A stretch of 64,000 nucleotides of DNA from Agrobacterium cucumeris (GTDB lineage Bacteria > Pseudomonadota > Alphaproteobacteria > Rhizobiales > Rhizobiaceae): assembly GCF_030036535.1 (NCBI RefSeq), contig NZ_CP080388.1:682001-746000 (forward strand), in the 5' to 3' direction. The position numbers and the translations under genes are program-made. This document shows positions 10,121-34,901 of the stretch, piece after piece. Below the pieces are notes generated by a model, which did no database searches, had not been told where the DNA came from, and was given only the letters and a program-made list of their open reading frames with translations. Within the stretch, counting starts at the first letter, position 1; each line of letters begins with the position of its first letter.

Positions 10121-10130
10121 CGGCCCGCCC

Positions 10131-10710: not shown

Positions 10711-10720
10711 GAAGGCGGTT

Positions 10721-12786: not shown

Positions 12787-12848
12787 TTTGATCCTCGTAT
12801 TTATTGCAATGCAGAGGGGTCGATGGCAGTCGGCCCCTTTTTCTTGAC

Positions 12849-15268: not shown

Positions 15269-15729
15269 CGGCGTGCTCTCTTCCTTACGGCGCGAGCTGC
15301 TCTCAGCGCCTCCATTTCCTTGATGTGATCCTCAAGGAGCTGGTCCTCGATCATCTCGGCGTATTCGTCCTCGATGACGGTGAGACCGAACTCGCCCGGC
15401 ACGAAACCGAGCAGCTCCTTGGCTTTGGTGGCGTGGACAAGCGCGATGAAGGCATCGAGCGGAATGCGGTGTTCGCCGCTGCCTTCCGAGGCCCATTTGT
15501 CGAGCATCGCGCTTGAGATCGTGCGTCCGAGATATTTGCTCATGGCGCTGGCGATCTCTGACCGCTGCCAGCCGTCATCGCGGGCATCGCGCAGGGCGCG
15601 GGCGATGAGGCGGGAAATACGATTGTCGAGCGGGCCGCGACCGGTCACGCCTTCTTCGTAGCGGATTGCCACCTGCGGCGGCGTCCACTCGAAAAGGTCC
15701 TTTGTGAGAGGGTCGCGGCGTTTGCTCAT
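15265..15729 (-). CDS. Hypothetical early phage protein, probable DNA-binding, 154 aa
   Basis: The product begins MSKRRDPLTKDLFEWTPPQVAIRYEEG and contains SRLIARALRDARDDGWQRSEIASAMSKYLGRTISSAMLDKWASEG (in parts), which looks like a helix-turn-helix with a second helix pair. An acidic helix near the end (EDEYAEMIEDQLLEDHIKEMEAL) precedes a basic tail. I know similar proteins next to transposases of rhizobial Mu-like phages, but no tested function. It overlaps the ParB-like gene by 4 nt. Confidence 0.66.
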   Translation of the reverse strand: MSKRRDPLTKDLFEWTPPQVAIRYEEGVTGRGPLDNRISRLIARALRDARDDGWQRSEIASAMSKYLGRTISSAMLDKWASEGSGEHRIPLDAFIALVHATKAKELLGFVPGEFGLTVIEDEYAEMIEDQLLEDHIKEMEALRAARAVRKRARR

Positions 15730-16577
15730 CGGCGAGCGGCCCTACGCTCGGCAACCCAACGCATGATGGAAGCTTCGTTCAGGGAGAAGAATGCGTCCTG
15801 TTCGGTGGGCTTCATCCGCGTGAAGCGGTCATTAAGCTTTTCCCATGCCGCCAGTGGATTGGCGCGGGGAACTTGGTCGATGATCGCGATGGCGTCGGCA
15901 TAGTTCGTCGCCTCGCCGGAAATCAGCAGCTCTACGATACGAGCGGCGCGCTCGTAGGGCAGGCCAGCGATATCCATAAGGGTCTGCTGGTTGTCGGCCA
16001 AGCCGTCATCCAGCGCGATACGCTCCCGCAGGTCGGCCGGAATACCGGCGATCTTGAGGGCGTTGAAAACATTGCGGCGGCTGATCTTGAGGAAGCGCTG
16101 TGCCGCCTCGCTGAAAGTGCCGGAGAACGCGGCGGCTGTCTCGATTGTCTCGACATCGGAGTTTAGTGCAGAGTCTGCACTTAATTCCTGCTTAGGCTTG
16201 GGGCCGCGCCGGACCGGGTTTGCTGCCCGCCAGATCGCGCACCAATCGGCAACGTCGACGCTGTGTTCCAGCGCCGTCAGTTCGTGGCGATAGAGAGTTT
16301 CGGAAATCTCGGTCAGGCGAATTTGAGCGTCGTTCGCGAATTCGTCCGATTGGCGAACGATGGCGGATATGTCGATGCCGAGCGATATGGCTGCGGCAAG
16401 GCGCTTGGCACCAAAGACGAGGCGATATCGCCCCTCGGTACCGGCGATAACCTCGACCGGAACGCGCTGCCCGATCTGCTGGAAGCTTTCGGCCAACGCC
16501 TGAATGGCGTCAGGGGAGACTTTTTTCGCGTCTGAGGAGACGTCGATCAGTTGGGGAGACAGAAGTTCAATCTGCAT
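15726..16577 (-). CDS. ParB/Spo0J-like DNA-binding protein
   Basis: The 283-residue protein starts MQIELLSPQLIDVSSDAKKVSPDAIQALAESFQQIGQRVPVEV and continues with a ParB N-terminal fold (GRYRLVFGAKRLAAAISLG, a GxRRxxA-like box with Lys-Arg). Modern ParB proteins bind CTP through this region. A helix-turn-helix follows at about 150-185 (FSEAAQRFLKISRRNVFNALKIAG). No ParA partner is seen, so plasmid-type partition is unlikely; a role in transposition control or early regulation is more plausible. The ATG at 16577 is chosen since the longer form to 16625 would overlap the Ner gene. Confidence 0.8.
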   Translation of the reverse strand: MQIELLSPQLIDVSSDAKKVSPDAIQALAESFQQIGQRVPVEVIAGTEGRYRLVFGAKRLAAAISLGIDISAIVRQSDEFANDAQIRLTEISETLYRHELTALEHSVDVADWCAIWRAANPVRRGPKPKQELSADSALNSDVETIETAAAFSGTFSEAAQRFLKISRRNVFNALKIAGIPADLRERIALDDGLADNQQTLMDIAGLPYERAARIVELLISGEATNYADAIAIIDQVPRANPLAAWEKLNDRFTRMKPTEQDAFFSLNEASIMRWVAERRAARR

Positions 16578-16624
16578 GTGGCACTCTGGATTGTCAGGAA
16601 AGGTTGCGCGGCCTGACGAAAACA

Positions 16625-16930
16625 TCAGGCGGCGTTCTGCGCGCCGTCAGACTTCGACGACTTTTTTGCTCTGGTGTTGCCGCTCGTGTTGCTGCTAGTG
16701 TCGCCTCGGTCGTGACGACCAAGCGTGTAGCTGTCGGGAAACATCTCGCGGAAAGGCACGCCCAGCGCCTTGGCTAAAGCCTCAGCGCCGGGACGGCTTG
16801 CCCCGAGAACCGCCGCACGGCACGCGCTGGAATAAAGGCCAGCATCGCGAGCTATTCCGGTCAGAGTTTTATTCTGCCGTAAGAGTTCCGCTTTGATGGC
16901 TGCCCGATCCCACTTCTTTGTGGTCGTCAT
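16625..16930 (-). CDS. ner: Ner-like phage regulator
   Basis: The 101-residue protein matches Mu Ner: KKWDRAAIKAELLRQNKTLTGIARDAGLYSSACRAAVLG, then ASRPGAEALAKALGVPFREMFPDSY, with a Ser/Lys-rich tail. Ner-type proteins damp both the repressor and early promoters during lytic growth. The start at 16930 has AGGGAG 8 nt upstream. It is the first gene of the leftward early operon, divergent from the repressor, exactly as in Mu. Confidence 0.88.
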   Translation of the reverse strand: MTTTKKWDRAAIKAELLRQNKTLTGIARDAGLYSSACRAAVLGASRPGAEALAKALGVPFREMFPDSYTLGRHDRGDTSSNTSGNTRAKKSSKSDGAQNAA

Positions 16931-17177
16931 GATTGCTCCCTGTTTTTCTGACCTTCGGCAAAAGGTCGGTTTGGTTGGGGGTTGGCGTTCAAACTTTGTT
17001 GCAACGGGATATTCGCGTAATTGCGTGAAAATGTCAACGAAACTCTCGTCATTACGCGGGTCATAGTTTCGAAATTCACGTAATTCCGAAAATCTGCCAT
17101 AGGGCATTGAAAATGTTTGGGAAAATCGGGAAGAAGTCGCAAATTTCCGACTGTGCCGCTTGGTCACGGTTTGCGTT
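16931..17177. promoter_or_regulatory. Divergent early-promoter/operator region with CGTAAT repeats
   Basis: The 247 nt between ner and the repressor are AT-richer than the surroundings and carry three copies of a short motif: CGCGTAATT at 17014-17022, the inverted CATTACGCG at 17050-17058, and CACGTAATT at 17077-17085. Spacing is about 36 and 27 nt. These are the likely binding sites of the repressor and/or Ner. No protein-coding frame of merit is seen here. Confidence 0.55.
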
Positions 17178-17876
17178 ATGACGGGAGAAACATTCTCGCA
17201 GCGTCTTGAAATCGTGTTGGATGGCGAATCAATTCACGCTTTTTCGAAAAGGGCGAAAATCCCTGATTCCACCTTTCGCCAATATCTGGCTGGCACAATG
17301 CCGGGGCTGGAAAAGCTCATCTCGATTTGCGAGGCTGGGAATGTATCGCTGGATTGGCTGGCGACGGGGCGCGGGCGTATGCGACCAGACAACGACAACG
17401 TTGCTGGAACGTTGATCGTCGCAGGCGAGCCGAACATTGTCTCAGTTGACGGAAAACAGCACGATATAACACTGGTTCCGCGCCTTGACGTTCGTGCGTC
17501 TGCCGGACTTGGTTTGATCGCATTTCAAGAGCAAGCCGTTGAAATAATAGCGTTTCAGTCGGAATGGCTTAGGTCGATCGGCGTTGCGCCATCATTTGCC
17601 CGCATCATCACGGCGCGTGGCGACAGCATGGAGCCGACGATCCGCGACGGCGATGTTCTTTTGATCGATACGTCCGTGACCGAAGTGCGCGATAACGGCA
17701 TCTATTGTGTGGTTTACGGGAATATGCTGCTGGTTAAGCGCGTTCATCCGAGAATGAACGGTTCCCTGCAGCTGATAAGTGACAATGCTGTATATCCGCC
17801 AGAAGAGGTCACCTCCGCAGAGGTTCCTGCGCTGTCTATTGCTGGACGCGTGATGTGGTATAGTCGTTCACTGTGA
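17178..17876 (+). CDS. Phage repressor, HTH plus S24 LexA-like protease
   Basis: The 232-residue repressor maintains lysogeny. The N-terminal helix-turn-helix spans about residues 5-55 (FSQRLEIVLDGESIHAFSKRA, then IPDSTFRQYLAGTMPGLEKL). The C-terminal S24 domain has the Ser nucleophile in ARGDSMEPTIRDGD and the Lys in NMLLVKRV, with a candidate Ala-Gly cleavage site in RASAGLGL. Self-cleavage under RecA control, and so SOS induction, is likely from the family. This differs from Mu c, which lacks such a protease. The ATG at 17178 is preferred over TTG 17160; no clear ribosome-binding site is seen. Confidence 0.9.
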   Translation: MTGETFSQRLEIVLDGESIHAFSKRAKIPDSTFRQYLAGTMPGLEKLISICEAGNVSLDWLATGRGRMRPDNDNVAGTLIVAGEPNIVSVDGKQHDITLVPRLDVRASAGLGLIAFQEQAVEIIAFQSEWLRSIGVAPSFARIITARGDSMEPTIRDGDVLLIDTSVTEVRDNGIYCVVYGNMLLVKRVHPRMNGSLQLISDNAVYPPEEVTSAEVPALSIAGRVMWYSRSL

Positions 17877-17906
17877 GAGCTAGCGGCCTGAAGCTCTGAT
17901 TTCGTT

Positions 17907-17950
17907 CCGGCCGCGTTGCCTGCCATTTGTTCTTGCGGCCGGATTTTCTT
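17907..17950 (+). terminator. Intrinsic terminator of the repressor gene
   Basis: Perfect arms CCGGCCGC (17907-17914) and GCGGCCGG (17935-17942) enclose a 20-nt loop, followed by ATTTTCTT. It lies 30 nt after the repressor stop and would stop transcription before the phage end. Confidence 0.62.
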
Positions 17951-18033
17951 GGAAGGCCCTTCAAGACCTTCTTTATGATGTCGTGAGTGCCGAGAAAATA
18001 AGGCCTTTAACCGCAGGTTCCCGGATTTTCCCA

Positions 18034-18082
18034 GTTATTCCCGGTTAAAGCCTACTCCTGCCATCTGGTATTGCGGGTTACA
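18034..18082 (-). other. Candidate left phage end (attL) with transposase-binding repeats
   Basis: Reading inward from 18082, the element would start TGTAACCCGC. The 16-mer GGTATTGCGGGTTACA (18067-18082) recurs as GTTATTCCCGGTTAAA (18034-18049), 12 of 16 matching and 33 nt apart, that is three helical turns. TTCCCGG also recurs at 18018 and 18038. Mu-type ends start with TG and carry several transposase sites in the first 180 bp. The next five bases, TCTAC (18083-18087), would be the target duplication. The other end is outside the window. Confidence 0.5.
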
Positions 18083-18086
18083 TCTA

Positions 18087-18201
18087 CCGTCATGCCGGGC
18101 TTGATCCGGCATCCAGCCACGGCGCGTCTGCGCCGTGAGAAGAGTCTCTCGCGATCAAGGACTTGATCACGCTGGACCCCGGATCAAGTCCGGGGTGACG
18201 G
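18087..18201. repeat. RIME-like intergenic mosaic element, copy 1
   Basis: This about 115-bp element begins CCGTCATGCCGG and ends GGGGTGACGG. It consists of three hairpins: TGCCGG/CCGGCA, a central CACGGCGC/GCGCCGTG (18118-18137), and ACCCCGGA/TCCGGGGT. It belongs to the same family as the copies at 31058, 44595 and 57658, and fits the description of Rhizobium-specific intergenic mosaic elements. It sits between the phage end and the 3' end of a transport gene and could terminate that operon. Confidence 0.8.
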
Positions 18202-18230
18202 AGTGGGGATGAACTCACATTTCAAAACGC

Positions 18231-19820
18231 TTACTCACTTTTCCAGGCAGTCGACAAATCCCCATAGGCAATGTCGATGGTCGTGACGAGCGACTTCAGA
18301 CTGGTGTTGCGCAGAATGACGGTCGGCAAAGCGACGATGGAGAAATTCGGCAGGTCGTCGCCGGTGATTTTCTGGATGTCGCGGAATTGCGCCGCCCGCT
18401 TCGTTTCATCCACCTCGATGGCGGCCGCACGGAAAAGATCATCCACCTTGGGGTTATTGTAGTGGGCGGCATTGACGTAAGGCGCGGGGTTCTTGATGCC
18501 ATCGGACCAGTAGAGACGCTGCACGCCCGCCGTTGGATCGAACAGCCGGCTGATGCCGTTCACCGTCAGGTCAAAACCGCGCTCGGTGTAAACGCGCTTG
18601 ATGAAGGTTGCGAGATCGCCTTCGACGATGTCTACCTTCACGCCGAGTTTGCCGAAGGAAGAGCGCAGATAGTCGGCTGTCTTGCGGAAGACGTCGGATG
18701 GCAGGAAGGCGAGCCGCAGCGAAAAACGGGTGCCATCAGCACCTCTCGGGTAACCAGCCTTGTCCAGCAATTCGTTCGCTTTGGCGAGATCGAAAGGATA
18801 GGTGAAAGGCTTTTCATCATTATAGGCGGTGAAGACGGCCGGGATGTTTGAACCAGCAGGTTTGGCCGTTCCGAAGAAGATCGCGTCATTGATGAAATCG
18901 CGGTCGATGGCATGGGCCAGCGCGTGGCGGACTTCCTTTTTGGCAAGGATCGGGTTTTCCAGATTGAACTCGAAGATGGCGGCATTGTTGAGATAGGAGT
19001 CTGTATAGACCTCCACCGCAAGCTTCGGATTTTGCCGCAGACGCTCCAGATCACTGTAGGAAACGTCAGCGGTGTAATCCGCCTCCCCCGTTTCCACGGA
19101 GATGGTGGTGGAGGCCGCATCCGCAACGAAGCGTGCCACGAAACCATCGAGATAAGGCAGATCGGCCTGCCAGTAATGCGGGTTCTTCTTCAGCTTCACA
19201 TAGCTGCCGCGTTTCCATTCCTCGAACACGAAGGGGCCGGTGCCGATGGGCGCATTGCCGTTCGGGCTTTCATTGTAGTTTTCCGAAGCATAGGCGTGGG
19301 CCGGCAGTATGGGTGTTTCGCCGCCCGTCAGCGCCCGCAGAAGGTAGGGTGCGGGTTTGGAAAGCACCACCACCGCCGTCAGCGGATCGGGCGTTTCGAT
19401 ATCGGCAATATTGGCAAAGGTGATACGCCCGCGCGGACCGACCTTCTTGAAGGCCAGCAGCGAGAATTTCACATCCTGCGCAGTGAAATCCCTGCCATCA
19501 TGCCATTTGACGCCCTTGCGCAGCTTGAACGTGTGACGCAGCCCGTCGGCGGAGGTTTCCCAGCTTTCGGCGAGAACCGGATGCGGCTTGAACTCGCTGT
19601 CGAACCGCACCAGCCCTTCAAGAATTTTCGTGGAAATGGCGCGGGTGCGCGTATTGGAATCGGAAAGCGGCACCAGCGTCGTCGGCTCGCCGAGACCCGC
19701 AAGAGTAACGATTCCGCCCTTTTTCGGCGTTTCCGCCGCCAGTGCGGGCAAGGACGGCAACAGCATGGCCCCGGCAAGCGCGGCACTCAGAAGCAATGTC
19801 TTACGTCTTGTAATATTCAT
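18231..19820 (-). CDS. ABC transporter substrate-binding protein, family 5 (peptide/nickel type)
   Basis: The 529-residue periplasmic protein has a signal peptide with a twin-arginine-like start (MNITRRKTLLLSAALAGAML, cleavage after ALAAE-like site near residue 28). The mature part follows the SBP_bac_5 pattern: RAISTKILEGLVRFDSEFKPHPVLAESWETS, then TFKLRKGVKWHDGRDFTAQDVKFS. It should bind a peptide-like or other organic solute. No permease or ATPase lies beside it, so it would use transporter parts encoded elsewhere. The start at 19820 has GAGGAAACATCC just upstream. It is the last gene of the leftward operon starting at 24294. Confidence 0.88.
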   Translation of the reverse strand: MNITRRKTLLLSAALAGAMLLPSLPALAAETPKKGGIVTLAGLGEPTTLVPLSDSNTRTRAISTKILEGLVRFDSEFKPHPVLAESWETSADGLRHTFKLRKGVKWHDGRDFTAQDVKFSLLAFKKVGPRGRITFANIADIETPDPLTAVVVLSKPAPYLLRALTGGETPILPAHAYASENYNESPNGNAPIGTGPFVFEEWKRGSYVKLKKNPHYWQADLPYLDGFVARFVADAASTTISVETGEADYTADVSYSDLERLRQNPKLAVEVYTDSYLNNAAIFEFNLENPILAKKEVRHALAHAIDRDFINDAIFFGTAKPAGSNIPAVFTAYNDEKPFTYPFDLAKANELLDKAGYPRGADGTRFSLRLAFLPSDVFRKTADYLRSSFGKLGVKVDIVEGDLATFIKRVYTERGFDLTVNGISRLFDPTAGVQRLYWSDGIKNPAPYVNAAHYNNPKVDDLFRAAAIEVDETKRAAQFRDIQKITGDDLPNFSIVALPTVILRNTSLKSLVTTIDIAYGDLSTAWKSE

Positions 19821-19854
19821 GGATGTTTCCTCGTAGAGACTCGTTTTCAAATTT

Positions 19855-21054
19855 TCAGGCAGGTTTCAGCCGGGTTTCCACCAGCCGGGCAAACAGCGTG
19901 GCGCCAACCGGCAGGATGGCGTCATCGACGATGAAACCGGGATTGTGGGCAGGCACGGTGCCGGAATGGCCAAGGGTGAAAAATGCGCCGGGCGCGTGTT
20001 TCAGGAGATCGGCGAAATCCTCGCTGCCCATGAAGCGGCCCGGCTCAGTGGAGACGCGCTCGTCTCCCAATACCTCGCGGGCCACGCCGGCAACGATCTC
20101 CACCGATGCATCGTCATTAGTGAGAACCGAGAATATGTCGCGAATATCCACCTCGGCGGTCAGGCCATGGGCGGCGGCAAGGTGATCGGAAATCGTGCGG
20201 ATGCGCTCCCGGATGGTTTCGCGCACGCTGTCGGAAAAAGCCCGCACCGTTCCGGCAATCGAGGCCGTTTCGGGAATGACATTATAGGCCGACCCCGCCT
20301 CGATGCGCGTGATCGACAGCACGGCAGGATCGGTCGGCGGCACGTTGCGGCTCACAATCGTCTGCAAGGCCTGGATGAGTTCGCCCGTGGCCGGCACCGG
20401 ATCACGCGAGACATCGGGGTGGGCGGCGTGGGCACCCCTGCCCTTCAGCCGGATATCGAAGAAATCCGCACCTGCCAGAATGGTGCCGGGCGAGACTTTC
20501 AGATGATTGGGCGCGGCATGGGTGGAATTATGCAGGCCATAAATCTCGTCGACAGGGAAATCCTTGAACAGCCCGTCGGCAATCATGGCGCGCGCGCCGC
20601 CAAGACCTTCCTCGGCCGGCTGAAAAATGAACACCACCGTGCCGGCGAAATCACGGGTTTCCGCCAGATAACGGGCGGTGCCGAGCAAAATCGTGGTATG
20701 CACATCATGTCCGCAACCGTGGAACTTGCCGGGATAAACCGACGCATAGGGCAGCCCGGTTTCCTCCGGCATCGGCAGGGCGTCCATATCGGCCCGAAGC
20801 CCGATGGACCGGTTACCCGCATGGCGGCCGTGCAACACGCCGACCAGGCCGGTCTTGCCATAACCGCGATGCACCTCGATTCCCCAGGAGGCGAGCTTTT
20901 CAGCGACGATGCCTGAGGTGCGCACCTCCTCGAAGCCGATTTCCGGATGCTGGTGCAGATCGTGGCGGATGGAGACGAGTTCGGGAACATAGGTCCCGAT
21001 CCGGTCCAGAATTTTCGGTGCTGATGTTTTGACGGGATCGACGGCGATATTCAC
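19855..21054 (-). CDS. M20 family amidohydrolase (hippurate hydrolase-like)
   Basis: The 399-residue zinc or manganese peptidase-type enzyme has the M20D signatures: SIRHDLHQHPEIGFEE, then FHGCGHDVHTTILLGTARYL (metal ligands), FIFQPAEEGLGGARAM (catalytic Glu) and RGAHAAHPDVSRDP in the lid domain. Relatives hydrolyse N-acyl amino acids or amide conjugates. In this operon it could release an amine or acid from an amide taken up with the downstream binding protein; the substrate is unknown. It starts at GTG 21054 with GAGGAG five bases before it. Confidence 0.88.
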   Translation of the reverse strand: MNIAVDPVKTSAPKILDRIGTYVPELVSIRHDLHQHPEIGFEEVRTSGIVAEKLASWGIEVHRGYGKTGLVGVLHGRHAGNRSIGLRADMDALPMPEETGLPYASVYPGKFHGCGHDVHTTILLGTARYLAETRDFAGTVVFIFQPAEEGLGGARAMIADGLFKDFPVDEIYGLHNSTHAAPNHLKVSPGTILAGADFFDIRLKGRGAHAAHPDVSRDPVPATGELIQALQTIVSRNVPPTDPAVLSITRIEAGSAYNVIPETASIAGTVRAFSDSVRETIRERIRTISDHLAAAHGLTAEVDIRDIFSVLTNDDASVEIVAGVAREVLGDERVSTEPGRFMGSEDFADLLKHAPGAFFTLGHSGTVPAHNPGFIVDDAILPVGATLFARLVETRLKPA

Positions 21055-21147: not shown

Positions 21148-22332
21148 TCAGAGCCTCAGGCCAGCCTCCTTCATCAAGGGCAGAATGCGCTCGGCGAAGT
21201 AATCAAGGTCTTCACGGAAATCGTAGAAATTCAGCTGAACCCCATCGATGCCGGCCTTTTTTAAACCGACAAGCTGCTCGACCACCTGTTCCGGCGAACC
21301 GATGATTTCGATATTGCCGCCGAGATTGCGCCCCTGCTTGTGGCGCGCATCGCCGCGGCCGCGCCAGGCATGGGCGTCGCTGTCGTAATTATTGGTGGCA
21401 AAGGCACGGGTGCCGGCCTGCGGTTTTCCAGCCTCGATGGCATCGGCATAGGCGATCGCCTCCTTTTCCGTATCGCGGCTGACGATGATCGGATTGATGA
21501 GCGTCTTCACCTGCCGGCCATAGGCTTTGGCACGGTTCTTGATCGTGGCGACATGATCGGGCAGCGTTTCCAGAGCGCTGTCTATATGCGCGCCGCCTGG
21601 CGAAGTGACGAAAACCAGATCGGAATGGCGGGCGGCGAAATCGATACCAGCAGGCGAACCCGTCGCCGTCACCAGCGGCGGGCGGCCAAAGGCCGGCTTC
21701 GGCGTGATCCAGCCATTGTTGATCGCCCACGGGTTTAGTTTGCCTTCATAGGAGAAGTTTTCTGTCTCGCCCCACAGGCGGTGAAGCACATCGAACAATT
21801 CACCCGCCATATCATAACGCCTGTCATGGTCGATCCGCTGCCAGCCGAACATTTCGTGCTCGATGGCGCGGTGGCCGGTGACGATGTTGATGCCCCAGCG
21901 CCCCTTGGCGATATGATCCAGCGTCGCTCCATATTTGGCGAGATGCAGCGGATGTAGAGGCCCGTAAAGCACATGGATGGTCGAGATCAGCAGAATGCTC
22001 TTCGTCACCGCCGCCATGGCGCCGAGCGCGATGAAGCTGTCGAGTGAGGATTCGCCGTCATATCCGCCCTTGGGCAGCCATTGGGTGCGGCTGAAGGCGA
22101 TTTCGAAACCAAGTTCCTCCGCCCGCTTCACCAGTTCGACGTTATAATCGAAAGTCCAGCTGTTGCTGGTCGGCAGGCTGGAGAAATTGATGTCCTGCAG
22201 GTTGAGGAACAGGCCGAGCATCAACGGCTGCTTCACCGCTCGGCTCAGCGGGCTGTCTTCGAAATCGGCGGGACTTTTCAGTTCGAGACCTTTCAGCTCC
22301 GAACCATCGGGCAAAGGAACACTCAGCGCCAT
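21148..22332 (-). CDS. FMNH2-dependent monooxygenase, dimethylsulfone/alkanesulfonate type (SfnG-like)
   Basis: The 394-residue protein is a bacterial-luciferase-fold flavin monooxygenase. Motifs shared with SfnG/SsuD include LGFEIAFSRTQWLPKGG, LLISTIHVLYGPLHPLHLAKYGATLDHIAKGRWGINIVTGH (read in parts) and GSPEQVVEQLVGLKKAGIDGVQLNFYDF. SfnG cleaves dimethylsulfone to methanesulfinate with reduced FMN. Its gene overlaps the NmrA-like gene by 10 nt, so both belong to the operon that starts with the DszB-like gene. A substrate with a C-S bond is likely, but the exact one cannot be read from sequence. It needs a flavin reductase, which is not encoded here. Confidence 0.86.
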   Translation of the reverse strand: MALSVPLPDGSELKGLELKSPADFEDSPLSRAVKQPLMLGLFLNLQDINFSSLPTSNSWTFDYNVELVKRAEELGFEIAFSRTQWLPKGGYDGESSLDSFIALGAMAAVTKSILLISTIHVLYGPLHPLHLAKYGATLDHIAKGRWGINIVTGHRAIEHEMFGWQRIDHDRRYDMAGELFDVLHRLWGETENFSYEGKLNPWAINNGWITPKPAFGRPPLVTATGSPAGIDFAARHSDLVFVTSPGGAHIDSALETLPDHVATIKNRAKAYGRQVKTLINPIIVSRDTEKEAIAYADAIEAGKPQAGTRAFATNNYDSDAHAWRGRGDARHKQGRNLGGNIEIIGSPEQVVEQLVGLKKAGIDGVQLNFYDFREDLDYFAERILPLMKEAGLRL

Positions 22333-23219
22333 GTCTTTTCTCCCTCGGAATGATCACCCTGCGGTGCGGCTGCGGCCAACCGAGTGCGCAGGTAGCTCTC
22401 CACGCCCCGGGGTTGACGACCGGTGATCCGGTCGATGGTATCGGTGACGGATGCCGCCAGACCTTCGCGGATGAGCTGACCGAATTCGCCGATCGCTTTC
22501 TGTTCGAACACGCCGATATCCGGTGGAAAGGCCAGCACGGCATCATGCGAAACACCAACCGGCCGATGCAGGATACGGGCCGCAATGCGGGCGATCTCCA
22601 GCCCCGTCAGGGCTTCGCCGCCGGTCAGCACCAGGGGGCCGGCAAGCGGTTCATCGGCAGTCAGCGCGTGAACCGCCACATCGGCGATATCGTCGGCATC
22701 GATGAAGGAGACGGCCGCATTGCCGAACCGGGCGGGCACATCCTCACCCTTGCGCAGCGCGGCGACAACGGGTTCCAGCACCACCTGCATCCATGCATTC
22801 GGCCGCAGTACCGTATGCGCTATGCCGGTTCTGGCAAGATGCGCCTCCACCTCGGCATGGGCCGCACCCGAGATGGAACGGGCGGCATTTTTTATGGTCC
22901 AGTCGGAGCCGGATATTTTTACGATCCGCGACGCACCGGCCGAGAGAGCCGCATCGATGACCGCATTCTGGTCAACTGCCAGCGCTTCTCCGATGGGGGA
23001 AAGCACAAAGACGGCATTTATGCCGCGCGCCGCCTCCTTCAGGCTGGCCGGATCAGAAAAATTCCCCTCCGCAATCTCGACCCTGTCACCCCAGAGCTTC
23101 AGCGCATCCTCGCGCCTGCGGGTCAGCACGCGAACGCTCTCCTGTTTTTGCAAAAGACGGCTGACGACACGCTGGCCGAGCTTGCCGGTTGCACCCGTTA
23201 CAAGAATGGTGGCTGCCAT
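22323..23219 (-). CDS. NmrA-like NAD(P)-binding oxidoreductase
   Basis: The 298-residue protein has an N-terminal Rossmann motif ILVTGATGKLGQRVVSRLL (GxTGxxG) followed by VRVLTRRREDA, as in atypical short-chain dehydrogenases of the NmrA/QOR2 type. It lacks the usual YxxxK catalytic pair, so it may be a quinone oxidoreductase, a redox sensor or a nucleotide-binding partner. The start at 23219 has GAGGACGTC directly before it and lies 7 nt after the stop of the DszB-like gene. The role in the sulfur cluster is unknown; supplying reduced cofactor is one possibility. Confidence 0.83.
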   Translation of the reverse strand: MAATILVTGATGKLGQRVVSRLLQKQESVRVLTRRREDALKLWGDRVEIAEGNFSDPASLKEAARGINAVFVLSPIGEALAVDQNAVIDAALSAGASRIVKISGSDWTIKNAARSISGAAHAEVEAHLARTGIAHTVLRPNAWMQVVLEPVVAALRKGEDVPARFGNAAVSFIDADDIADVAVHALTADEPLAGPLVLTGGEALTGLEIARIAARILHRPVGVSHDAVLAFPPDIGVFEQKAIGEFGQLIREGLAASVTDTIDRITGRQPRGVESYLRTRLAAAAPQGDHSEGEKTWR

Positions 23220-23226
23220 GACGTCC

Positions 23227-24294
23227 TCACTTTCCAGCTTTGTGTTGTGCGGTCTCTTGCAGTGAAGAAAGAGCACGTGGATCGGCCCAGTCCCGCACAT
23301 CGAAATCGTCAGGGATAAATTTCCATTCCAGCAGGAAATCCTTGAAATGGCTCAGCGCATCCAATTCCGCCGGATCGAGATCGAGCCGCAGATTTTGGTG
23401 CACATCCGCGCCATTGGCAGCCAGGACCGCCTCTTCGCTGACGCCGATCTCGCGGGCGATGAAACGCACGGCCTCCGCCGGATTGTCATTTGCCCACTGG
23501 GCAACCCGCTGAACGGTGGCCACCAGTTCCGCCACCAGATCGGGCCGCTCATCGGCAAAGGTGGCGTCCACCGTCAAGGGACGCGGCGTGCCATTATTGA
23601 TGCGGATTTTCGGATCGGGATGAAACCCGGTTGATACGACGACCTGAGCACCGATGAGATTGGCGACGGTGACACCTTCGGCGCCCTTGACGAAAAATGC
23701 ATCGATCTGGCCGCGGTGCAGTGCTGCAATTTCCTCACCATAAGGAAGCCGCCGGCGCAGGCCATGGAAACGCTCATCCGTGGGACCAAGCAGCACTGGC
23801 TCTCTTGCTGTCAGATCGACAAGTTCGACATCCGCAACGGTGAGATCGGAAACGGTGAGTGCCGACACGATGCCCTTCAGCGACGTGGCGCGCTGGAAAT
23901 CGATGGTTTCATTCGGACGTTTCGGCAGGCCGACGCGCCGCCCCTTCAAATCGCGGCCCTTGTTTATTCCGCTTGCGGGCAACGCGATGACCGCCTGAAA
24001 CTCATCGGTTCTCGTCAGCCCCACCAGCCGCGTCTGCCGGCCACCCGCCTTCGCCCAGATTGGCGGAATGTTGCCGCCCTGGCGGAAGGACCAGTCCAGC
24101 CGATGATCAAAATGGCTCTGCCTGATAGCTGGATCGGCCGCATCTCGAATGGAGGAAACGGAGATGCCGTGACCGGCAAAACGCTCCTCTATCCAGCCAA
24201 GCTGCACCGCGATCGAGAGCGGCGTTGGTGCCGGGCAGCGGGTGTACCAGAGGGTCACGGGTTGGGTTGCTTGGCGAAGGGCGGCATCAGCCAT
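23227..24294 (-). CDS. DszB-like organosulfinate desulfinase (resembles NMT1/SsuA binding proteins)
   Basis: The 355-residue protein has the bilobed fold of sulfonate-binding proteins but no signal peptide, so it is cytoplasmic. It carries the catalytic residues of DszB (2'-hydroxybiphenyl-2-sulfinate desulfinase): Cys20 in YTRCPAPTPL, equal to Cys27 of DszB in YSNCPVPNAL, and His61 and Arg71 in HFDHRLDWSFRQGGNIPP, with the same ten-residue spacing as His60 and Arg70 and the same GG-IPP. It should release sulfite from an aryl or alkyl sulfinate. Automatic annotation would call it an ABC substrate-binding protein. It heads the leftward operon. The alignment to DszB is from memory; the substrate is unknown. 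Confidence 0.75.
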   Translation of the reverse strand: MADAALRQATQPVTLWYTRCPAPTPLSIAVQLGWIEERFAGHGISVSSIRDAADPAIRQSHFDHRLDWSFRQGGNIPPIWAKAGGRQTRLVGLTRTDEFQAVIALPASGINKGRDLKGRRVGLPKRPNETIDFQRATSLKGIVSALTVSDLTVADVELVDLTAREPVLLGPTDERFHGLRRRLPYGEEIAALHRGQIDAFFVKGAEGVTVANLIGAQVVVSTGFHPDPKIRINNGTPRPLTVDATFADERPDLVAELVATVQRVAQWANDNPAEAVRFIAREIGVSEEAVLAANGADVHQNLRLDLDPAELDALSHFKDFLLEWKFIPDDFDVRDWADPRALSSLQETAQHKAGK

Positions 24295-24358
24295 GGCGGT
24301 CGTCCTCGAAATTGCGATCTGGACAGCACACTACACGTTGCGGGATATTTTCTATAGA

Positions 24359-24374
24359 TAAAGTGTACTATTTA
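24359..24374. promoter_or_regulatory. Imperfect dyad in the divergent dszB-like/dszA-like promoter region
   Basis: TAAAGTGTACTATTTA has the form TAAA-nn-GTAC-nn-TTTA and contains TAGTA on the minus strand. It lies 65 nt upstream of the DszB-like start in the 355-nt intergenic region 24295-24649. A related dyad precedes the monooxygenase at 27072. The rest of the region shows no convincing gene; a short frame at 24445-24645 lacks a start signal. Confidence 0.4.
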
Positions 24375-24649
24375 GGAGGCGATTGAAGAAATTCGTTTCC
24401 ATAACACTAGGACCTCGCACGGTGAAGGAAATATCCTTTCGAAAATGGCGTTATTTTCGAACACAACTCCCAACGCAGCCATTCATATCCGGGGCATCCA
24501 CGTGGGAGCCGGGAAAGCCATGGCTCGAAAGTTTTTCTTCTCCCAGCAGCAAGGATTTTTAACTCGCGACCGAAATCGCGGCTGTTACGCTTTCGGACAA
24601 TTGCACCCGCCACAGGCTGGAAATCCCATACAGACGGAAAAATAAAAGC

Positions 24650-25957
24650 ATGAGCAACACCAAACGCCGGCTCAATCTCAATGTCGGCATCAACACAACG
24701 GGATATCTTCCCAATGCCTGGAAATACAGAAGCGGAGACCGGCACGATATCAATGATATCGGCTATTACCGGCGGCTGACGGAACTGGCCCATAAAGGCC
24801 AGTTCGACGCTGTTTTCCTCTCCGACCACCCGGCATTGCTGACCGACCCGGCCAGCCGTCCATTTCACACCATCGATCCGCTCATCCTCTCCACCTCACT
24901 TGCCGCGCAGGTGCCGGATATCGGTTTTGTGGCGACGATATCCTCCACCTATAATTCACCCTATAATTTTGCGAGACGGACGCAGTCTATCGACGTGGTC
25001 ACCGGCGGCCGGCTGATCGTCAACATCGTCTCCTCCTTCAATCCCAATGTCGCGGCCAATTTCGGCAACGATCCGCTGCCACCACGCAGCGAACGTTATG
25101 CCAAGGCCACCGAATTTCTCGATGTCGCGAAAAAGCTCTGGTCGAGCTGGGATCCGCGCCGTGAGGGAGACGTGCCGGAAGATCGCTTCTGGGATGCCGC
25201 AACGGCGGAAACCATCGATCACGAGGGGCAATATTTCCACGTAAAAGGGCCGCTCAACGTTCCACGCGGGCCGCAGGGACATCCCGTCATCGCGCAGGCC
25301 GGCGCTTCCGAAGGTGGCATCGATCTGGCGGCTCGCCATGGCGAGATCATCTATTGCAACATCCTGTCACGCCCGGCGGGTCAGGCCTTCGGCAAAAAGG
25401 TGCGTGACCGTGCTGTCTCTTTCGGCCGCGATCCCGCCGGCATCCGCATCGTTCCCGGCCTTGTCGTCATTCTCGGCGAGACCCGTGAGGAAGCGCTGCG
25501 CAAGCATGAACTCTTCAGCGGGACCGGCTCGGAAGACGGGCTTCTGGCGCGTTTCGCCAAGGAAAACGGCATTGATCCGCGCGATTTCAACCCGGATATA
25601 AAACTCGACGGCGAGCGCTTCATTCCCGACCAGAACCGGCAATGGGCTGTTGGCATGGGGCTTGGCCTGTCCGAGCTGCTGACCCATGAAAAGCTCACCG
25701 CGCGTGAGGCCGTGCGCCGCTCCGAGGGACACCACCGGCTGCTGCTCGGCACGCCGGAAGAGGTGGCGGATGGCATCATCGACCTCTGGCAGGATGGCAC
25801 CGTGGATGGCTACACCCTGCAGCCACCGCGCGCGCCCGATGATATTGCCGAATTCGTCGAAAAGGTCGTGCCGGTGCTGCAGGACCGCGGCGTTTATCCG
25901 CGTGAATATGACGGTGCGACGATCCGCGACCGCTATGGTCTGCCTTATCCCGATTGA
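24650..25957 (+). CDS. DszA/NtaA-family FMNH2-dependent monooxygenase
   Basis: The 435-residue protein belongs to the NtaA/SnaA/DszA group of luciferase-like monooxygenases. Shared motifs include ISSTYNSPYNFARRTQSIDVVTGGR, AKKLWSSWDP, GQYFHVKGPLNVPRGPQGHP with VIAQAG, and FVEKVVPVLQDRGVYPREYDG near the end, each with a close counterpart in DszA, which opens the thiophene ring of dibenzothiophene sulfone to a sulfinate. Together with the divergent DszB-like gene it could turn a sulfone into a sulfinate and then sulfite. NtaA-type nitrilotriacetate or other substrates remain possible. Length is normal (DszA 453). Confidence 0.87.
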   Translation: MSNTKRRLNLNVGINTTGYLPNAWKYRSGDRHDINDIGYYRRLTELAHKGQFDAVFLSDHPALLTDPASRPFHTIDPLILSTSLAAQVPDIGFVATISSTYNSPYNFARRTQSIDVVTGGRLIVNIVSSFNPNVAANFGNDPLPPRSERYAKATEFLDVAKKLWSSWDPRREGDVPEDRFWDAATAETIDHEGQYFHVKGPLNVPRGPQGHPVIAQAGASEGGIDLAARHGEIIYCNILSRPAGQAFGKKVRDRAVSFGRDPAGIRIVPGLVVILGETREEALRKHELFSGTGSEDGLLARFAKENGIDPRDFNPDIKLDGERFIPDQNRQWAVGMGLGLSELLTHEKLTAREAVRRSEGHHRLLLGTPEEVADGIIDLWQDGTVDGYTLQPPRAPDDIAEFVEKVVPVLQDRGVYPREYDGATIRDRYGLPYPD

Positions 25958-26043: not shown

Positions 26044-27072
26044 TTATTGACCTGCCGCCACTTTCAAAACCGGCCGGCCGCCGGAAAGCTGCGGCACGAC
26101 GGAGGCGAAATCCGTGACGATCTGGCGATAATCTTCCGGCTGAAACTCATAGGGCAACTCCAGACGGAATTCCGAGACATGCGGCAGCACGGGATCACGC
26201 GACAGCGTCTCCAGAATCTCCTCAGTCGTGCCAACGATGTCGGGCAGGAAAAGCGTGCGGCGCGCGCCATGCGGCGTATGCGTGCGCTTGTCACGCTCAG
26301 CGGCGAATTCCGCATAACGGCGGCGTGTCGCGGGGCTTGCGCTATCGGTTGGCAGGATCACCCGTCCCAGCGCGACACGCGGCTGGCGCTCATGCGCCCA
26401 TTCCTGCCGGAAGCGGGCGACAAGAGCTGCCTGTGCGGTCAGAAAATCATCGGTATTTTCACCGCTGACGATATTACCGGTCAGAAGATTGAACCCGGCC
26501 CTGCCGGCCCACCGGGCGGAGTTCTGCGATCCGCCGCCATACCACAGCCGGTCGGTCAAACCCCTGGCGAAGGGCCGAAGACGCGGCACCTGAGCACCAG
26601 CGGCATTGCCGGCCTCCGTGTCACTGGACAAAGGTTCCGATCTCAAAGCCTTCGCCAGCTTTTCCGCGCGACCGTGGCTGTAATCCGCATCGGCAGCAAT
26701 ATCGACATAGTCCGAAATGAGATGCGCAAAGGGCGGCGCGCCCACCGAAACGCCGACATTCAGCCGCCCGTGTGACAGGACATCAACCGTGGCGAGGTCC
26801 TCGGCCAGCCTGAAGGGATTTTCATAACCCAGCTGAATGACGGCAGTGCCTAGCCCGATCCGCTTCGTGCGCTGCGATGCAGCGGCAAGAAAAGTGGCTG
26901 CCGATGAAACGCCCCGTTCCAGATGGCGCTGACGCACCCAGGCGCTGTGATAACCCAGCGCCTCCCCGGCTTCGAAAAGCTGCAGGGTTTCTTCCAGCCC
27001 CTTTGCAGGGTCATCATCGTGATAATTGCCGGGAACCAGAAAGGCGAAATGAGAAATACGGGAAAGAGGCAT
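26044..27072 (-). CDS. Luciferase-like (LLM) flavin-dependent oxidoreductase
   Basis: The 341-residue protein begins MPLSRISHFAFLVPGNYHDDDPAKGLEETLQLFEAGEALGYHSAWVRQRH (read in parts), the single-domain luciferase-like fold. RIGLGTAVIQLGYENPFRLAEDLATVDVLSHGRLNVGVSVG is the FMN-phosphate region. It is smaller and distinct from the SfnG- and DszA-like enzymes, so the cluster has three different flavin monooxygenases. The gene is convergent with the DszA-like gene and has its own promoter region with a dyad at 27237. Substrate unknown; a sulfur or other heteroatom compound is likely from context. Its start has only a weak ribosome-binding site. Confidence 0.82.
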   Translation of the reverse strand: MPLSRISHFAFLVPGNYHDDDPAKGLEETLQLFEAGEALGYHSAWVRQRHLERGVSSAATFLAAASQRTKRIGLGTAVIQLGYENPFRLAEDLATVDVLSHGRLNVGVSVGAPPFAHLISDYVDIAADADYSHGRAEKLAKALRSEPLSSDTEAGNAAGAQVPRLRPFARGLTDRLWYGGGSQNSARWAGRAGFNLLTGNIVSGENTDDFLTAQAALVARFRQEWAHERQPRVALGRVILPTDSASPATRRRYAEFAAERDKRTHTPHGARRTLFLPDIVGTTEEILETLSRDPVLPHVSEFRLELPYEFQPEDYRQIVTDFASVVPQLSGGRPVLKVAAGQ

Positions 27073-27236
27073 AGTGAACGTCCGGGAATGGTTGTTGACG
27101 GAAGACGGGCTCAGGCGATGCTGCTGCGGCCGTTCTTCCGTGCCGCGCATACTCCAGCAGAATGCCCGATGAAGGGCGCGGCTTGCACGGCATGGTCTTT
27201 TATAGTCCCGGTCATTGTTGAAAGATCGTTGCGCAA

Positions 27237-27493: not shown

Positions 27494-28642
27494 ATGATCA
27501 TCACCGACGTCGAGGTCCGTGTTTTCCACACGACGACCCGTCGCCACTCGGACAGCGCCGGTCACGCGCATCCCGGGCCGGCGCATCAGGTGGAACAGGC
27601 CATGCTGACCATCCGCACGGAAGATGGGCAGGAAGGCCACTCCTTCACCGCGCCGGAGATCGTTCGCCCGCATGTCATCGAAAAATTCGTCAAGAAAGTC
27701 CTGATCGGTGAAGACCATCGCGACCGGGAACGGCTGTGGCAGGATCTTGCCCACTGGCAGCGCGGCTCGGCTGCGCAACTGACGGACCGCACATTGGCGG
27801 TGGTGGATTGCGCATTGTGGGACCTTGCCGGCCGCTCGCTCAATCAACCTGTATACAAGTTGATCGGCGGTTATCGCGACAAGGTGCTGGCCTATGGCTC
27901 GATCATGTGTGGTGACGAGCTGGAAGGCGGGCTGGCGACGCCGGAAGATTACGGCCGTTTTGCCGAAACGCTGGTAAAGCGCGGTTACAAGGGCATCAAG
28001 CTGCACACCTGGATGCCGCCCGTCAGCTGGGCACCGGATGTGAAGATGGACCTCAAGGCCTGCGCCGCCGTTCGCGAGGCGGTTGGCCCCGATATTCGCC
28101 TGATGATCGACGCTTTCCACTGGTACTCCCGCACCGATGCGCTGGCGCTGGGGCGTGGTCTCGAAAAACTCGGTTTCGATTGGATCGAGGAGCCGATGGA
28201 TGAACAGTCGCTGTCCTCCTACAAATGGCTTTCCGACAATCTCGATATTCCGGTCGTCGGCCCGGAAAGCGCTGCTGGCAAGCATTGGCATCGCGCCGAA
28301 TGGATCAAGGCCGGCGCCTGCGATATTCTGCGCACCGGCGTCAACGATGTCGGCGGCATCACCCCGGCGCTGAAGACCATGCATCTGGCCGAAGCCTTTG
28401 GCATGGAATGCGAAGTCCATGGTAACACGGCCATGAACCTGCACGTTGTCGCCGCCACCAAGAATTGCCGCTGGTATGAGCGTGGCCTGTTGCACCCCTT
28501 CCTCGAATATGATGACGGCCACGATTATCTGAAATCGCTGTCCGACCCGATGGATCGCGACGGCTTCGTGCATGTCCCTGACCGGCCGGGCCTTGGCGAG
28601 GACATCGATTTTACCTTCATCGACAATAACCGGGTGAGGTAA
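27494..28642 (+). CDS. Enolase-superfamily (mandelate racemase-like) dehydratase/racemase
   Basis: The 382-residue enzyme has the enolase-superfamily barrel. Metal ligands are Asp206 in MIDAFHWYS, Glu232 in DWIEEPMDE and Glu258 in VVGPESAAG. The lysine motif reads KLH (Lys169, His171) rather than the usual KxK, and a probable general base His309 lies in CEVHGNT. Such enzymes abstract an alpha proton from a carboxylate, often dehydrating or isomerising an acid sugar or its lactone. With an SGNH hydrolase remnant, a binding protein and an ABC transporter nearby, an imported acid sugar or ester is plausible. The exact substrate cannot be named. Confidence 0.85.
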   Translation: MIITDVEVRVFHTTTRRHSDSAGHAHPGPAHQVEQAMLTIRTEDGQEGHSFTAPEIVRPHVIEKFVKKVLIGEDHRDRERLWQDLAHWQRGSAAQLTDRTLAVVDCALWDLAGRSLNQPVYKLIGGYRDKVLAYGSIMCGDELEGGLATPEDYGRFAETLVKRGYKGIKLHTWMPPVSWAPDVKMDLKACAAVREAVGPDIRLMIDAFHWYSRTDALALGRGLEKLGFDWIEEPMDEQSLSSYKWLSDNLDIPVVGPESAAGKHWHRAEWIKAGACDILRTGVNDVGGITPALKTMHLAEAFGMECEVHGNTAMNLHVVAATKNCRWYERGLLHPFLEYDDGHDYLKSLSDPMDRDGFVHVPDRPGLGEDIDFTFIDNNRVR

Positions 28643-29277: not shown

Positions 29278-29358
29278 TCCTGCGACGCCCGAGGAGGAAC
29301 CGGGCGCGAGGATCAAAACGTGGAAAGGCCGTATGAACCGGCCGTATTGGGAGGAAAA

Positions 29359-30957
29359 ATGAAACATTTTCTTGCAACCGCAGCGCTTGGCGCATTGCTG
29401 ATCGGCGCCATGCCGCTCAGTGTTTTCGCCGAAACGCCGAAAGACCAGCTCATCGTCGCCACAACCATGAGCAATATCCTGACCCTCGATCCGGCCGCCA
29501 TCACCGGCCGCGAGACCGTGCAGGTCTTGAACAACGTCTATGACACGCTGGTCGTGCTTTCGCCTGAAGATCGCAGCGTGCAGCCCCGCCTTGCCGAACG
29601 TTGGGAAATTGGCGAAGACCGGAAATCGATCCGCTTCCATCTGCGCGCCGATGCCAAATTCGCCTCCGGCAATGCCGTGACGGCAAAGGACGTGGCGTGG
29701 AGCCTGAAACGCCTGCTCGCCCGCAATCTGGCGCAATCCTCCTTCCTGAAAACCCGTGGTTTCAAGCTGGAGGAAGCCGACAAGCTGTTCGTTGCCGAAA
29801 ACGACCAGACCTTCGTGCTGAATATTCCGAAGCCTGACGACCCCAATCTTCTCCTGATGATCCTTGCGCAAAACGGTCCCGGCTCGATCATCGACAGCAA
29901 GACCGCGCTTGAGAACGAGAAGGACGGCGATCTGGGCGGCGCATGGCTGACGCTGAATTCCGCCGGCTCCGGCCCCTTCAAGCTGACGCAATGGAAATCC
30001 AACGAATATATCATCCTCACCCGCAACGACGATTATTGGGGTGAGAAGGCCAAGATGAGGCGCATCCTGATGCGTCATCTGCCGGAATCGCAGTCGCAGC
30101 GCCTGATGCTGGAAAAAGGCGATATCGACGTTGCCTATTCCCTGCAGGCCCCCGATCTGAAATCGCTTGAGGCCGACAAGGCCGTCACCATCGAATCCAC
30201 ACCCGGCTCCGGTTTTTATTACCTCAGCGTTTCGATGAAGGATGAGAAATTCGCCAATAAGAAGGTGCGCGAGGCCCTGCGTTACCTGATCGATTACGAC
30301 GGTCTCGACAAGGCGGTCATGCCCTATTACGGCAAGGTGCATCAGCGTTCTCTCAGCACCGGTGTCATGGGTGCGCTGCCGGATCAGGGCTACAAGCTCG
30401 ATATCGCAAAAGCCAAGGCGCTTCTGGCTGAGGCCGGTTATCCCAACGGTTTCAAGACGACGCTGCGCGTACTCTCGGAAGATCCCTTCATGAAGGCGGC
30501 AACGGCGATCCAGAACACGCTGGCGCAGGCCGGTATTCAGGCCGAGCTGATCAGCGGCTCCGGCGACCAGATCTATGGCGCCATGCGCGAGCGGAATTTC
30601 GAACTGCTGCTCGGCCGCGGCGGCGGCGGCCAGCAGCCGCATCCCGACAACAACCTGCGCTCCATCGCCTATAATCCCAACAATGCCGACGACGCCAAGC
30701 TGACCAACTATCAGAGCTGGCGCACCAGCTTCTTCGATGAAAAGCTGAACAAGATGATCGAAGAAGCGCTTGTCGAGCGCGATGTGGCGAAACAGACGAA
30801 GCTTTATGAGGACCTGCAGGGCTATATGGACGAGATCGTCATGTCGATCCAACCTTTCTCCGAAGTCATCGACACCGCCGCCTTCCGCAGCGATATCAAG
30901 GGCATGATCGTCAGCCCCTGGCTTTCGCGCTTTGAAGAGGTGAGCAAGGAGCGGTGA
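29359..30957 (+). CDS. ABC transporter substrate-binding protein, family 5
   Basis: The 532-residue protein has a classical signal peptide (MKHFLATAALGALLIGAMPL, cleavage near VFAE at 25). The mature protein shows SBP_bac_5 features: AAITGRETVQVLNNVYDTLVVLSPEDRSVQPRLAERWEIGEDRKSIRFHLR in parts, and a binding-cleft region EKGDIDVAYSLQAPDLKSL. It is presumably the periplasmic receptor of the ABC transporter encoded convergently at 31339-34847. GGGAGGAAAA precedes the start at 29359. A terminator follows at 30982. Confidence 0.9.
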   Translation: MKHFLATAALGALLIGAMPLSVFAETPKDQLIVATTMSNILTLDPAAITGRETVQVLNNVYDTLVVLSPEDRSVQPRLAERWEIGEDRKSIRFHLRADAKFASGNAVTAKDVAWSLKRLLARNLAQSSFLKTRGFKLEEADKLFVAENDQTFVLNIPKPDDPNLLLMILAQNGPGSIIDSKTALENEKDGDLGGAWLTLNSAGSGPFKLTQWKSNEYIILTRNDDYWGEKAKMRRILMRHLPESQSQRLMLEKGDIDVAYSLQAPDLKSLEADKAVTIESTPGSGFYYLSVSMKDEKFANKKVREALRYLIDYDGLDKAVMPYYGKVHQRSLSTGVMGALPDQGYKLDIAKAKALLAEAGYPNGFKTTLRVLSEDPFMKAATAIQNTLAQAGIQAELISGSGDQIYGAMRERNFELLLGRGGGGQQPHPDNNLRSIAYNPNNADDAKLTNYQSWRTSFFDEKLNKMIEEALVERDVAKQTKLYEDLQGYMDEIVMSIQPFSEVIDTAAFRSDIKGMIVSPWLSRFEEVSKER

Positions 30958-31338: not shown

Positions 31339-32097
31339 TCAAGCGCCTTCATATTCCAGAGAGGCACCGATCAGTTCGCGGGCATAGGGATGCGTCGCGC
31401 CATTGCCGGCGATAGCCTCGCGCGGCAGGATTTCGGTGATCTCACCGCGCAGCATCACGGCGAAACGGTCGCACATGTGATCGACCACGGCGAGATCATG
31501 GGTGACCATGATATAGGTGAAACCGCGCTCTTCCCGCAGCCGCTGCAACAGATTGAGGATTTCCGCCTGCACCGAGACATCGAGCGCCGAGGTCGGCTCA
31601 TCAAGCAGAAGCAGAGACGGTTCGAGGATCAACGCACGGGCAATCGCCACACGCTGCCGCTGGCCGCCGGAAAGTTGATGCGGAAAGCGGTCGAGAAAGG
31701 AGACGGGCAGACCGACATCGGTGATGACTTTGCGCATGCGCTCTTCACGGTCGCCGAGCTTGTGGATCGCAAGCGATTCCGAAAGCACGGTGCGCACCGA
31801 CTGGCGGGGATGTAGCGAGCCGTAAGGGTCCTGAAATACCATTTGCAGCATGCGGCACCGCTCGATCAGCGGCATGTCACGCACCGACCTGCCGTTGATG
31901 AGGATTTCGCCACTCCAGAAATCGTTGAGCATCGACACACAACGCAGCACGGTGGATTTGCCCGAGCCGCTTTCGCCGACCAGCCCGAAGCACTCGCCAG
32001 GCTCCACCTTGAAGGAGACGGAGGGCAGCACTTTCAGCGCCGTATGGCCGCTGCCGAAGGTAATGGAAAGATCGCGGATTTCAACGGAAACGGCCAT
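31339..32097 (-). CDS. ABC transporter ATP-binding protein (OppF/DppF-like)
   Basis: The 252-residue ATPase has Walker A GESGSGKST, the Q-loop VFQDPYGSLHPRQSV, the signature LSGGQRQRVAIARAL and Walker B LLLLDEPTSALD. It pairs with the upstream ATPase to energise uptake of a peptide-type solute. Start overlaps the upstream stop (TAATG), so translation is coupled. The family usually has a further C-terminal oligopeptide extension of about 70 residues; here the protein ends shortly after HPYARELIGASLEYEGA, which is on the short side. Confidence 0.9.
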   Translation of the reverse strand: MAVSVEIRDLSITFGSGHTALKVLPSVSFKVEPGECFGLVGESGSGKSTVLRCVSMLNDFWSGEILINGRSVRDMPLIERCRMLQMVFQDPYGSLHPRQSVRTVLSESLAIHKLGDREERMRKVITDVGLPVSFLDRFPHQLSGGQRQRVAIARALILEPSLLLLDEPTSALDVSVQAEILNLLQRLREERGFTYIMVTHDLAVVDHMCDRFAVMLRGEITEILPREAIAGNGATHPYARELIGASLEYEGA

Positions 32098-32933: not shown

Positions 32934-32937
32934 CGTC

Positions 32938-34847: not shown

Positions 34848-34901
34848 GATTCCTCCCTTGCCAGAAACCGATCGGCGCAAGGATGAATGCGCAATCCTGT
34901 C

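Follow-up and report, generated by a model that had tools for sequence, protein, structure and literature searches.

Does a gene of Agrobacterium cucumeris that resembles the substrate-binding proteins of sulfonate importers encode an enzyme instead? The gene lies in a window of 64,000 nucleotides of contig NZ_CP080388.1 (positions 682,001 to 746,000; assembly GCF_030036535.1), by which we mean the whole stretch of DNA analyzed, and it occupies positions 23227 to 24294 of the window on the minus strand as one open reading frame (ORF) of 355 codons plus a stop. Read on the plus strand, the same segment is not open and contains two stops. A sequence-only reading had proposed that the product is a cytoplasmic sulfinate desulfinase related to DszB, the 2'-hydroxybiphenyl-2-sulfinate desulfinase (Protein Data Bank entries 2DE2, 2DE3, and 2DE4), that routine annotation would mislabel as a transport protein; its ORF boundaries were exact, and the strand, which it did not name, is minus. 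Frame, homology, alignment, tree, and predicted fold together make it fairly probable that the product of this DszB-like gene is a cytoplasmic sulfinate desulfinase belonging to a subfamily related to DszB; it would be fed by an importer and flavin monooxygenases. We directly observed the sequence, predicted fold, clade, and conservation, an N terminus with no evident signal peptide, and the neighboring genes, and from these we infer what reaction the protein catalyzes, in which order the pathway runs, that the protein is cytoplasmic, and what its substrate is.

Conservation of the catalytic residues

C20, in the context WYTRCPAPTP, is the only cysteine of the protein, and H61 and R71 stand ten residues apart, with GGNIPP next. 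In alignment, these three residues fall on Cys27, His60, and Arg70 of DszB, the arginine lying in an RxGG motif; their codons, located by eye, are at 24235 to 24237 (Cys20), 24112 to 24114 (His61), and 24082 to 24084 (Arg71), all on the minus strand. T18, two residues before C20, aligns with S25, which stands two before C27 in DszB. The DszB records compared came from Rhodococcus, Gordonia, and Mycobacterium and included the thermophilic enzyme of Paenibacillus. Shuffling the protein sequence 20,000 times produced the pattern C-x(25-50)-H-x9-R-x-G-G by chance in 2 cases, and the real support for the observation comes from conservation across homologs, which is more telling than the shuffle test. 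The residues and contexts named by the sequence-only reading were all as stated and are backed by this conservation.

Of the 7,995 candidates with most shared words that a homolog search scored, 1,377 were retained, and 120 of these were listed. The pattern is present in 119 of these 120 homologs, the only one without it (P0063) being a 251-residue piece that is missing its N-terminal part. An alignment of 55 sequences had 15 invariant columns, including Y17, C20, H61, R71, G73, and G74. In a 67-sequence alignment that covers a third family as well as the DszB-like clade (44 rows) and DszB, the residues H61, R71, G73, and G74 remained invariant, and the C20 column held Cys in 66 rows. The sole exception, a deposited Rhodococcus erythropolis desulfinase (P0168), has Gly at the expected catalytic Cys. 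A scan of named genomes confirmed at least 529 relatives among at least 593 matching stretches; the pattern is present at all of the best 80 loci, which were kept, and in none of 19 binding proteins. With Cys, His, and the Arg of RxGG at aligned positions, the protein agrees in this respect with DszB-type desulfinases in the wide sense.

N terminus, fold, and phylogeny

Judged by simple hydropathy, the protein has no evident signal peptide, as the sequence-only reading had also held. We placed the YTxC motif in 111 of the 120 listed homologs; it starts after 6 to 16 residues in 110 of them, and a hydrophobic stretch precedes it in one (P0042, which has a longer start). The other nine comprise seven with WYARCP, one with WYTRCR near the start, and one that is N-terminally short. 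All 19 binding proteins, by comparison, have a hydrophobic stretch within their first 70 residues. A cytoplasmic location for the DszB-like protein would be consistent with this N terminus.

The fold predicted for the protein is closer to that of DszB than to that of SsuA or TauA, the sulfonate- and taurine-binding proteins with which it shares the Type II periplasmic-binding fold. The structural check proposed earlier is borne out to this extent, as a comparison of overall folds. We built a tree of 67 rows, namely, 23 proteins of this clade, 15 from a DszB search, 6 of a Rhizobium leguminosarum type, 4 intermediates, and the 19 binding proteins, which include Escherichia coli SsuA and TauA and also L023, L029, L031, and L035. 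A branch with 100/100 support splits the first 48 proteins from the 19 binding proteins, so that, as the sequence-only reading had expected, the protein groups with DszB and not inside SsuA/TauA. The tree has long branches, including the one joining the DszB side with the binding proteins. All 48 DszB-side proteins carry the pattern (L016 was counted untrimmed, since its tree row starts past the Cys). The DszB-like clade (support, 100/95) sits beside the DszB clade (100/100), outside it. These relationships make a distinct subfamily of putative DszB-type desulfinases, separate from DszB itself, well supported in silico.

We weighed these results against the database label, under which the protein would be the solute-binding protein of a sulfonate-type ATP-binding cassette (ABC) importer. 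The label has a basis in a Pfam NMT1 match of 37.5 bits (cut-off, 20.5), a weak match to NCBIfam SsuA_fam (84 bits), and a predicted fold of the same kind as that of SsuA. The SsuA_fam score does not reach its cut-off of 163.5, however, and the N terminus is not signal-like, whereas SsuA and TauA show a hydrophobic stretch near the N terminus, do not carry the Cys/His/Arg-GG set, and group by themselves in the tree, apart from the DszB side. An SsuC-type permease, moreover, occurs within about 10 kb at only 9 of the 80 loci (0 of 16 control stretches). We give the transport role very little credence and rejected it on N terminus, clade, and neighbors.

Names are shown for 41 of the 120 listed homologs, some of them incomplete. 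Among these, 39 are named, at least in part, as ABC or nitrate/sulfonate binding proteins and 5 (P0002, P0003, P0053, P0059, and P0102) as a desulfurase or DszB-type protein, three rows having names of both kinds. The mislabeling that the sequence-only reading suspected is thus common among named relatives but not universal. The consulted part of PMC5491218 lists Burkholderia cenocepacia BCAM0556 as dibenzothiophene desulfurization enzyme B. Excerpts of PMC10179380 and PMC7661421 contain no evidence on this clade, PMC13352529 has none of six terms sought in it, and an excerpt of PMC6395730 reports a sulfolane degrader without dszB.

Gene neighborhood

In the window, the DszB-like gene is followed on the minus strand by a gene for an NmrA/NAD(P)H-binding protein (22323 to 23219; start placed by eye inside ORF 22323 to 23300) and a luciferase-like flavin monooxygenase (21148 to 22332). 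The closest solved structure to the latter is a dimethylsulfone monooxygenase (8t0u; E, 1.1e-41); we call it SfnG-like, and its score against NCBIfam SfnG is 184.7 bits, under the cut-off of 382.95. Family matches identify an M20 family amidohydrolase (19855 to 21054, minus) and a family 5 extracellular solute-binding protein (18231 to 19850, minus), the latter with a signal-like N terminus by eye. Divergent from the DszB-like gene lies an NtaA/DmoA-family flavin monooxygenase (24650 to 25957, plus) whose closest solved structure is an ethylenediaminetetraacetate (EDTA) monooxygenase (E, 1.1e-91), with the DszA-type structure 5tlc at an E of 3.9e-56. A scan of positions 24200 to 24750 gave one promoter-like and one terminator-like site, with 0.5 of each expected.

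Beyond these genes, family matches placed a third luciferase-like monooxygenase (26044 to 27150, minus), a mandelate racemase/muconate lactonizing enzyme family protein (27494 to 28642, plus), and a second family 5 solute-binding protein (29320 to 30957, plus). An oligopeptide-type ABC importer spans 31339 to 34907 on the minus strand, with ATPases at 31339 to 32118 and 32097 to 32933 and permeases at 32938 to 33825 and 33825 to 34907; the ATPase at 32097 to 32933 was assigned by eye and the other importer genes by Pfam scan. A GntR/FCD-family regulator (35827 to 36558, minus; family match) might, at a guess from its position, be linked to the importer. No Ssu-type permease was found among the scanned genes, which are part of the genes of the window.

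We compared the 80 named loci, with a reach of about 10 kb each, with 16 control stretches of 20 kb. A luciferase-like monooxygenase occurs at 79 loci (0 of 16 controls), a family 5 solute-binding protein at 76 (0 of 16), and oligopeptide-type permeases at 66 (0 of 16); acyl-coenzyme A (CoA)-dehydrogenase-type flavoproteins are found at 66 loci and in 1 of 16 controls. NmrA genes are present at 39 loci and M20 genes at 17, each against 0 of 16 controls, and at 35 loci, the first matched gene downstream of the DszB-like gene on its own strand is NmrA-like. NtaA/DszA-family monooxygenases occur at 54 of the 80. On pSymA of Sinorhizobium meliloti R28, the gene shares a single run with genes for a flavoprotein of the acyl-CoA-dehydrogenase type, NmrA, a flavin adenine dinucleotide oxidoreductase, an NAD(P)-dependent oxidoreductase, and an NtaA/DmoA monooxygenase.

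Pocket, substrate, and proposed reaction

According to an excerpt of PMC6100217, F61, W155, and F203 of DszB possibly stabilize by hydrophobic contact. F61 is kept as F62 in the DszB-like protein, W155 is replaced by T137, and F203 is replaced by L183, so that one of the three aromatic pocket residues of DszB proper is present. T137 is identical in all 44 clade rows of the 67-row alignment, and L183 varies. Since W155 and F203 are replaced, biphenyl sulfinate is probably not the substrate; judging from these sequence changes, a different substrate is likely, probably a smaller or more polar one.

These replacements bear on whether the protein is a true biaryl sulfinate desulfinase of the 4S dibenzothiophene pathway. 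Its kinship with DszB in the tree, the NtaA/DszA-family monooxygenases and acyl-CoA-dehydrogenase-type flavoproteins at the loci counted above, and the records named dibenzothiophene desulfurization enzyme B would fit such a role. We nevertheless consider it quite improbable, as the protein falls outside the fully supported clade of DszB alone, has lost W155 and F203, and lies alongside an oligopeptide-type importer, and the monooxygenases in the window are nearer to EDTA monooxygenase and SfnG than to DszA. The gene order dszA-dszB-dszC is not found either, the neighbors of the DszB-like gene in the window being different. Strict orthology with DszB was rejected on pocket and clade.

The preferred reading, a sulfinate desulfinase with a pocket of its own, can be stated as a pathway. 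An organosulfur compound would enter through the oligopeptide-type ABC importer, and the flavin monooxygenases of the island, notably the SfnG-like one two genes downstream, would oxidize it and cut its C-S bond to give a sulfinate. R71 and the G73-G74 backbone of the DszB-like protein would hold the sulfinate; C20, with H61 taking up its charge, would protonate the carbon that bears the sulfur, and SO2/sulfite would be released for assimilation. The roles of the residues are drawn by analogy with DszB as described in the same excerpt (PMC6100217). Clade, predicted fold, lack of an evident signal peptide, and neighborhood all favor a desulfinase mislabeled as a transporter, as the sequence-only reading proposed, while the pocket argues against biphenyl sulfinate as the substrate.

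Several points weigh against this reading. Identity to DszB is about 26%, two of the three pocket aromatics are replaced, and the alignment behind the structure model included DszB sequences. Ala takes the place of T18 in seven homologs among the 120 listed, all of the WYARCPAPTP type (P0018, P0019, P0021 to P0024, and P0032), so the analogy of a hydroxyl partner for the His (S25 in DszB, T18 here) is not general, to judge from the alignment. The mechanism calculated for DszB is an electrophilic aromatic substitution and needs an aromatic carbon. An SfnG-type enzyme is expected to yield an alkyl sulfinate, so mechanism and neighborhood do not fit each other as they stand. Among the neighborhood data, one locus of the 80 (L118) lacks both a luciferase-like monooxygenase and a gene of the acyl-CoA-dehydrogenase type within reach, and the controls are few. 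Many of the 80 loci are closely related and so not independent, some end at contig ends, and the reference genes used to detect neighbor families by similarity came from the window and from loci of this kind; the counts therefore express association and not independent events.

Some of these points would equally suit an enzyme of the DszB fold that uses the same trio for another reaction, such as C-S, C-N, or C-C cleavage, on a nonsulfinate substrate of the island. Such an enzyme might account for a pocket unlike that of DszB and for the missing hydroxyl in the seven homologs, and the same fold occurs, by fold list, in the hydroxymethylpyrimidine (HMP) synthase Thi5, in MqnD, and in a dihydroxyphthalate decarboxylase. 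Searches of the open-license literature, which is not all of print, gave no paper on the activity of the clade. On the other side, trio, spacing, and RxGG match DszB almost without exception, and the neighbor families include C-S oxidizing enzymes; we regard a different reaction as unlikely.

Shared with DszB are the fold, the Cys-His-Arg trio, the His-Arg spacing, RxGG, a hydroxyl two residues before the Cys in most members, and flavin monooxygenase neighbors; unlike DszB, the protein belongs to a separate clade, has no dszABC operon, and has an oligopeptide-type importer alongside. Sulfone and sulfonate scavenging by SfnG, MsuC, and MsuD has its counterpart in the SfnG-like monooxygenase in the run of the DszB-like gene. 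In the SfnG/MsuC/MsuD route, sulfinate is oxidized to sulfonate before sulfite is released; the desulfinase here could, unlike that route, release sulfite directly. We put forward tentatively, as a possibility that may well prove wrong, that the subfamily with its rebuilt pocket frees sulfite directly from the small polar or aliphatic sulfinates that sulfone monooxygenases like SfnG produce, giving a sulfone-to-sulfinate-to-sulfite route with no sulfonate step in rhizobia, agrobacteria, and Comamonadaceae. Such a route would have to rely on a reaction mechanism different from the one calculated for DszB, which is an aromatic substitution.

If the desulfinase reading is true, transport-labeled genes of plant-associated bacteria would be enzymes ending an organosulfur-scavenging route, and desulfinases would reach beyond the petroleum-desulfurizing dsz operon. 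The different pocket would provide a natural series for studying substrate choice in DszB, whose slow turnover limits biodesulfurization according to an excerpt of PMC12168087. Annotation could then be corrected by a rule, namely, a Cys followed by His-x9-Arg-x-Gly-Gly without a signal peptide.

Distribution and related genes

The DszB-like gene is common in the genus and patchy elsewhere. At an E of 1e-30, 26 of 39 genomes of the genus match (its own included), 25 with an ortholog at 79% identity or more and one with the paralog described below only; in the phylum, 7 of 398 genomes match at the same threshold (its own included). Within the family, 56 of 297 genomes have any match at an E of 0.001 (scoring was limited to six candidates or fewer in most of them), and 8 of 297 have a match of at least 50% identity over most of the protein; a ninth, G120, reaches this over 70 residues only.

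Pairs of such genes occur in several places. Two DszB-like genes lie close together on a Burkholderia cenocepacia replicon (L039, 9019 to 10026 and 12066 to 13127), and neighboring pairs are also found in other genomes of the phylum. One locus (L159, 8128 to 10358) has a tandem pair of pattern-bearing proteins with, by eye, a binding-protein-like gene upstream and an ABC ATPase-like gene downstream. A Variovorax locus (L037, 8980 to 10056 and 16283 to 16918; L089) combines a DszB-like gene with genes for a sulfurtransferase and for a member of the cysteine dioxygenase family. The cysteine dioxygenase family is an enzyme type that makes sulfinates; a similar dioxygenase is present at 1 of the 80 named loci, also in Variovorax.

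The third family with the same Cys/His/Arg-GG set (P0203 to P0322) carries the pattern in all 120 listed of 2,989 matches, and a class-wide search at an E of 1e-60 found it in 0 of 289 genomes. Examples are L041 (8941 to 10116) and L156 (9004 to 10170). In R. leguminosarum ATCC 14479, a relative 69% identical has two genes of the 2-hydroxyacyl-CoA dehydratase family on one side and two activase genes on the other; genes for a symporter, rhodaneses, and a sulfate permease come next. Beside the gene of strain 22B (L041), no dehydratase or activase genes of this kind are annotated. That a desulfinase-like protein should stand together with dehydratase-type enzymes driven by ATP is puzzling.

A. 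cucumeris itself has a second DszB-like gene, a paralog 55% identical and 59 kb away. It adjoins the genes for a flavoprotein of the acyl-CoA-dehydrogenase type and for a family 5 binding protein; a rhodanese, a sulfur transporter, and an importer of the oligopeptide type are encoded nearby. In one genome (G691:C4:496136-497142), the paralog matches as two overlapping pieces in separate frames and looks broken. In the relative G190, the two DszB-like genes are 19 kb apart; here, a stretch of about 40 kb with prophage genes that is unmatched in G190 intervenes. Positions 1 to 18235 of the window are the right part of this stretch (G000:C2, about 660110 to 700235), which has matches to a transposase, a ParB-like protein, a CI-like repressor, and a terminase small subunit and may be Mu-like. 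The stretch parts two halves of the organosulfur island that lie together in G190.
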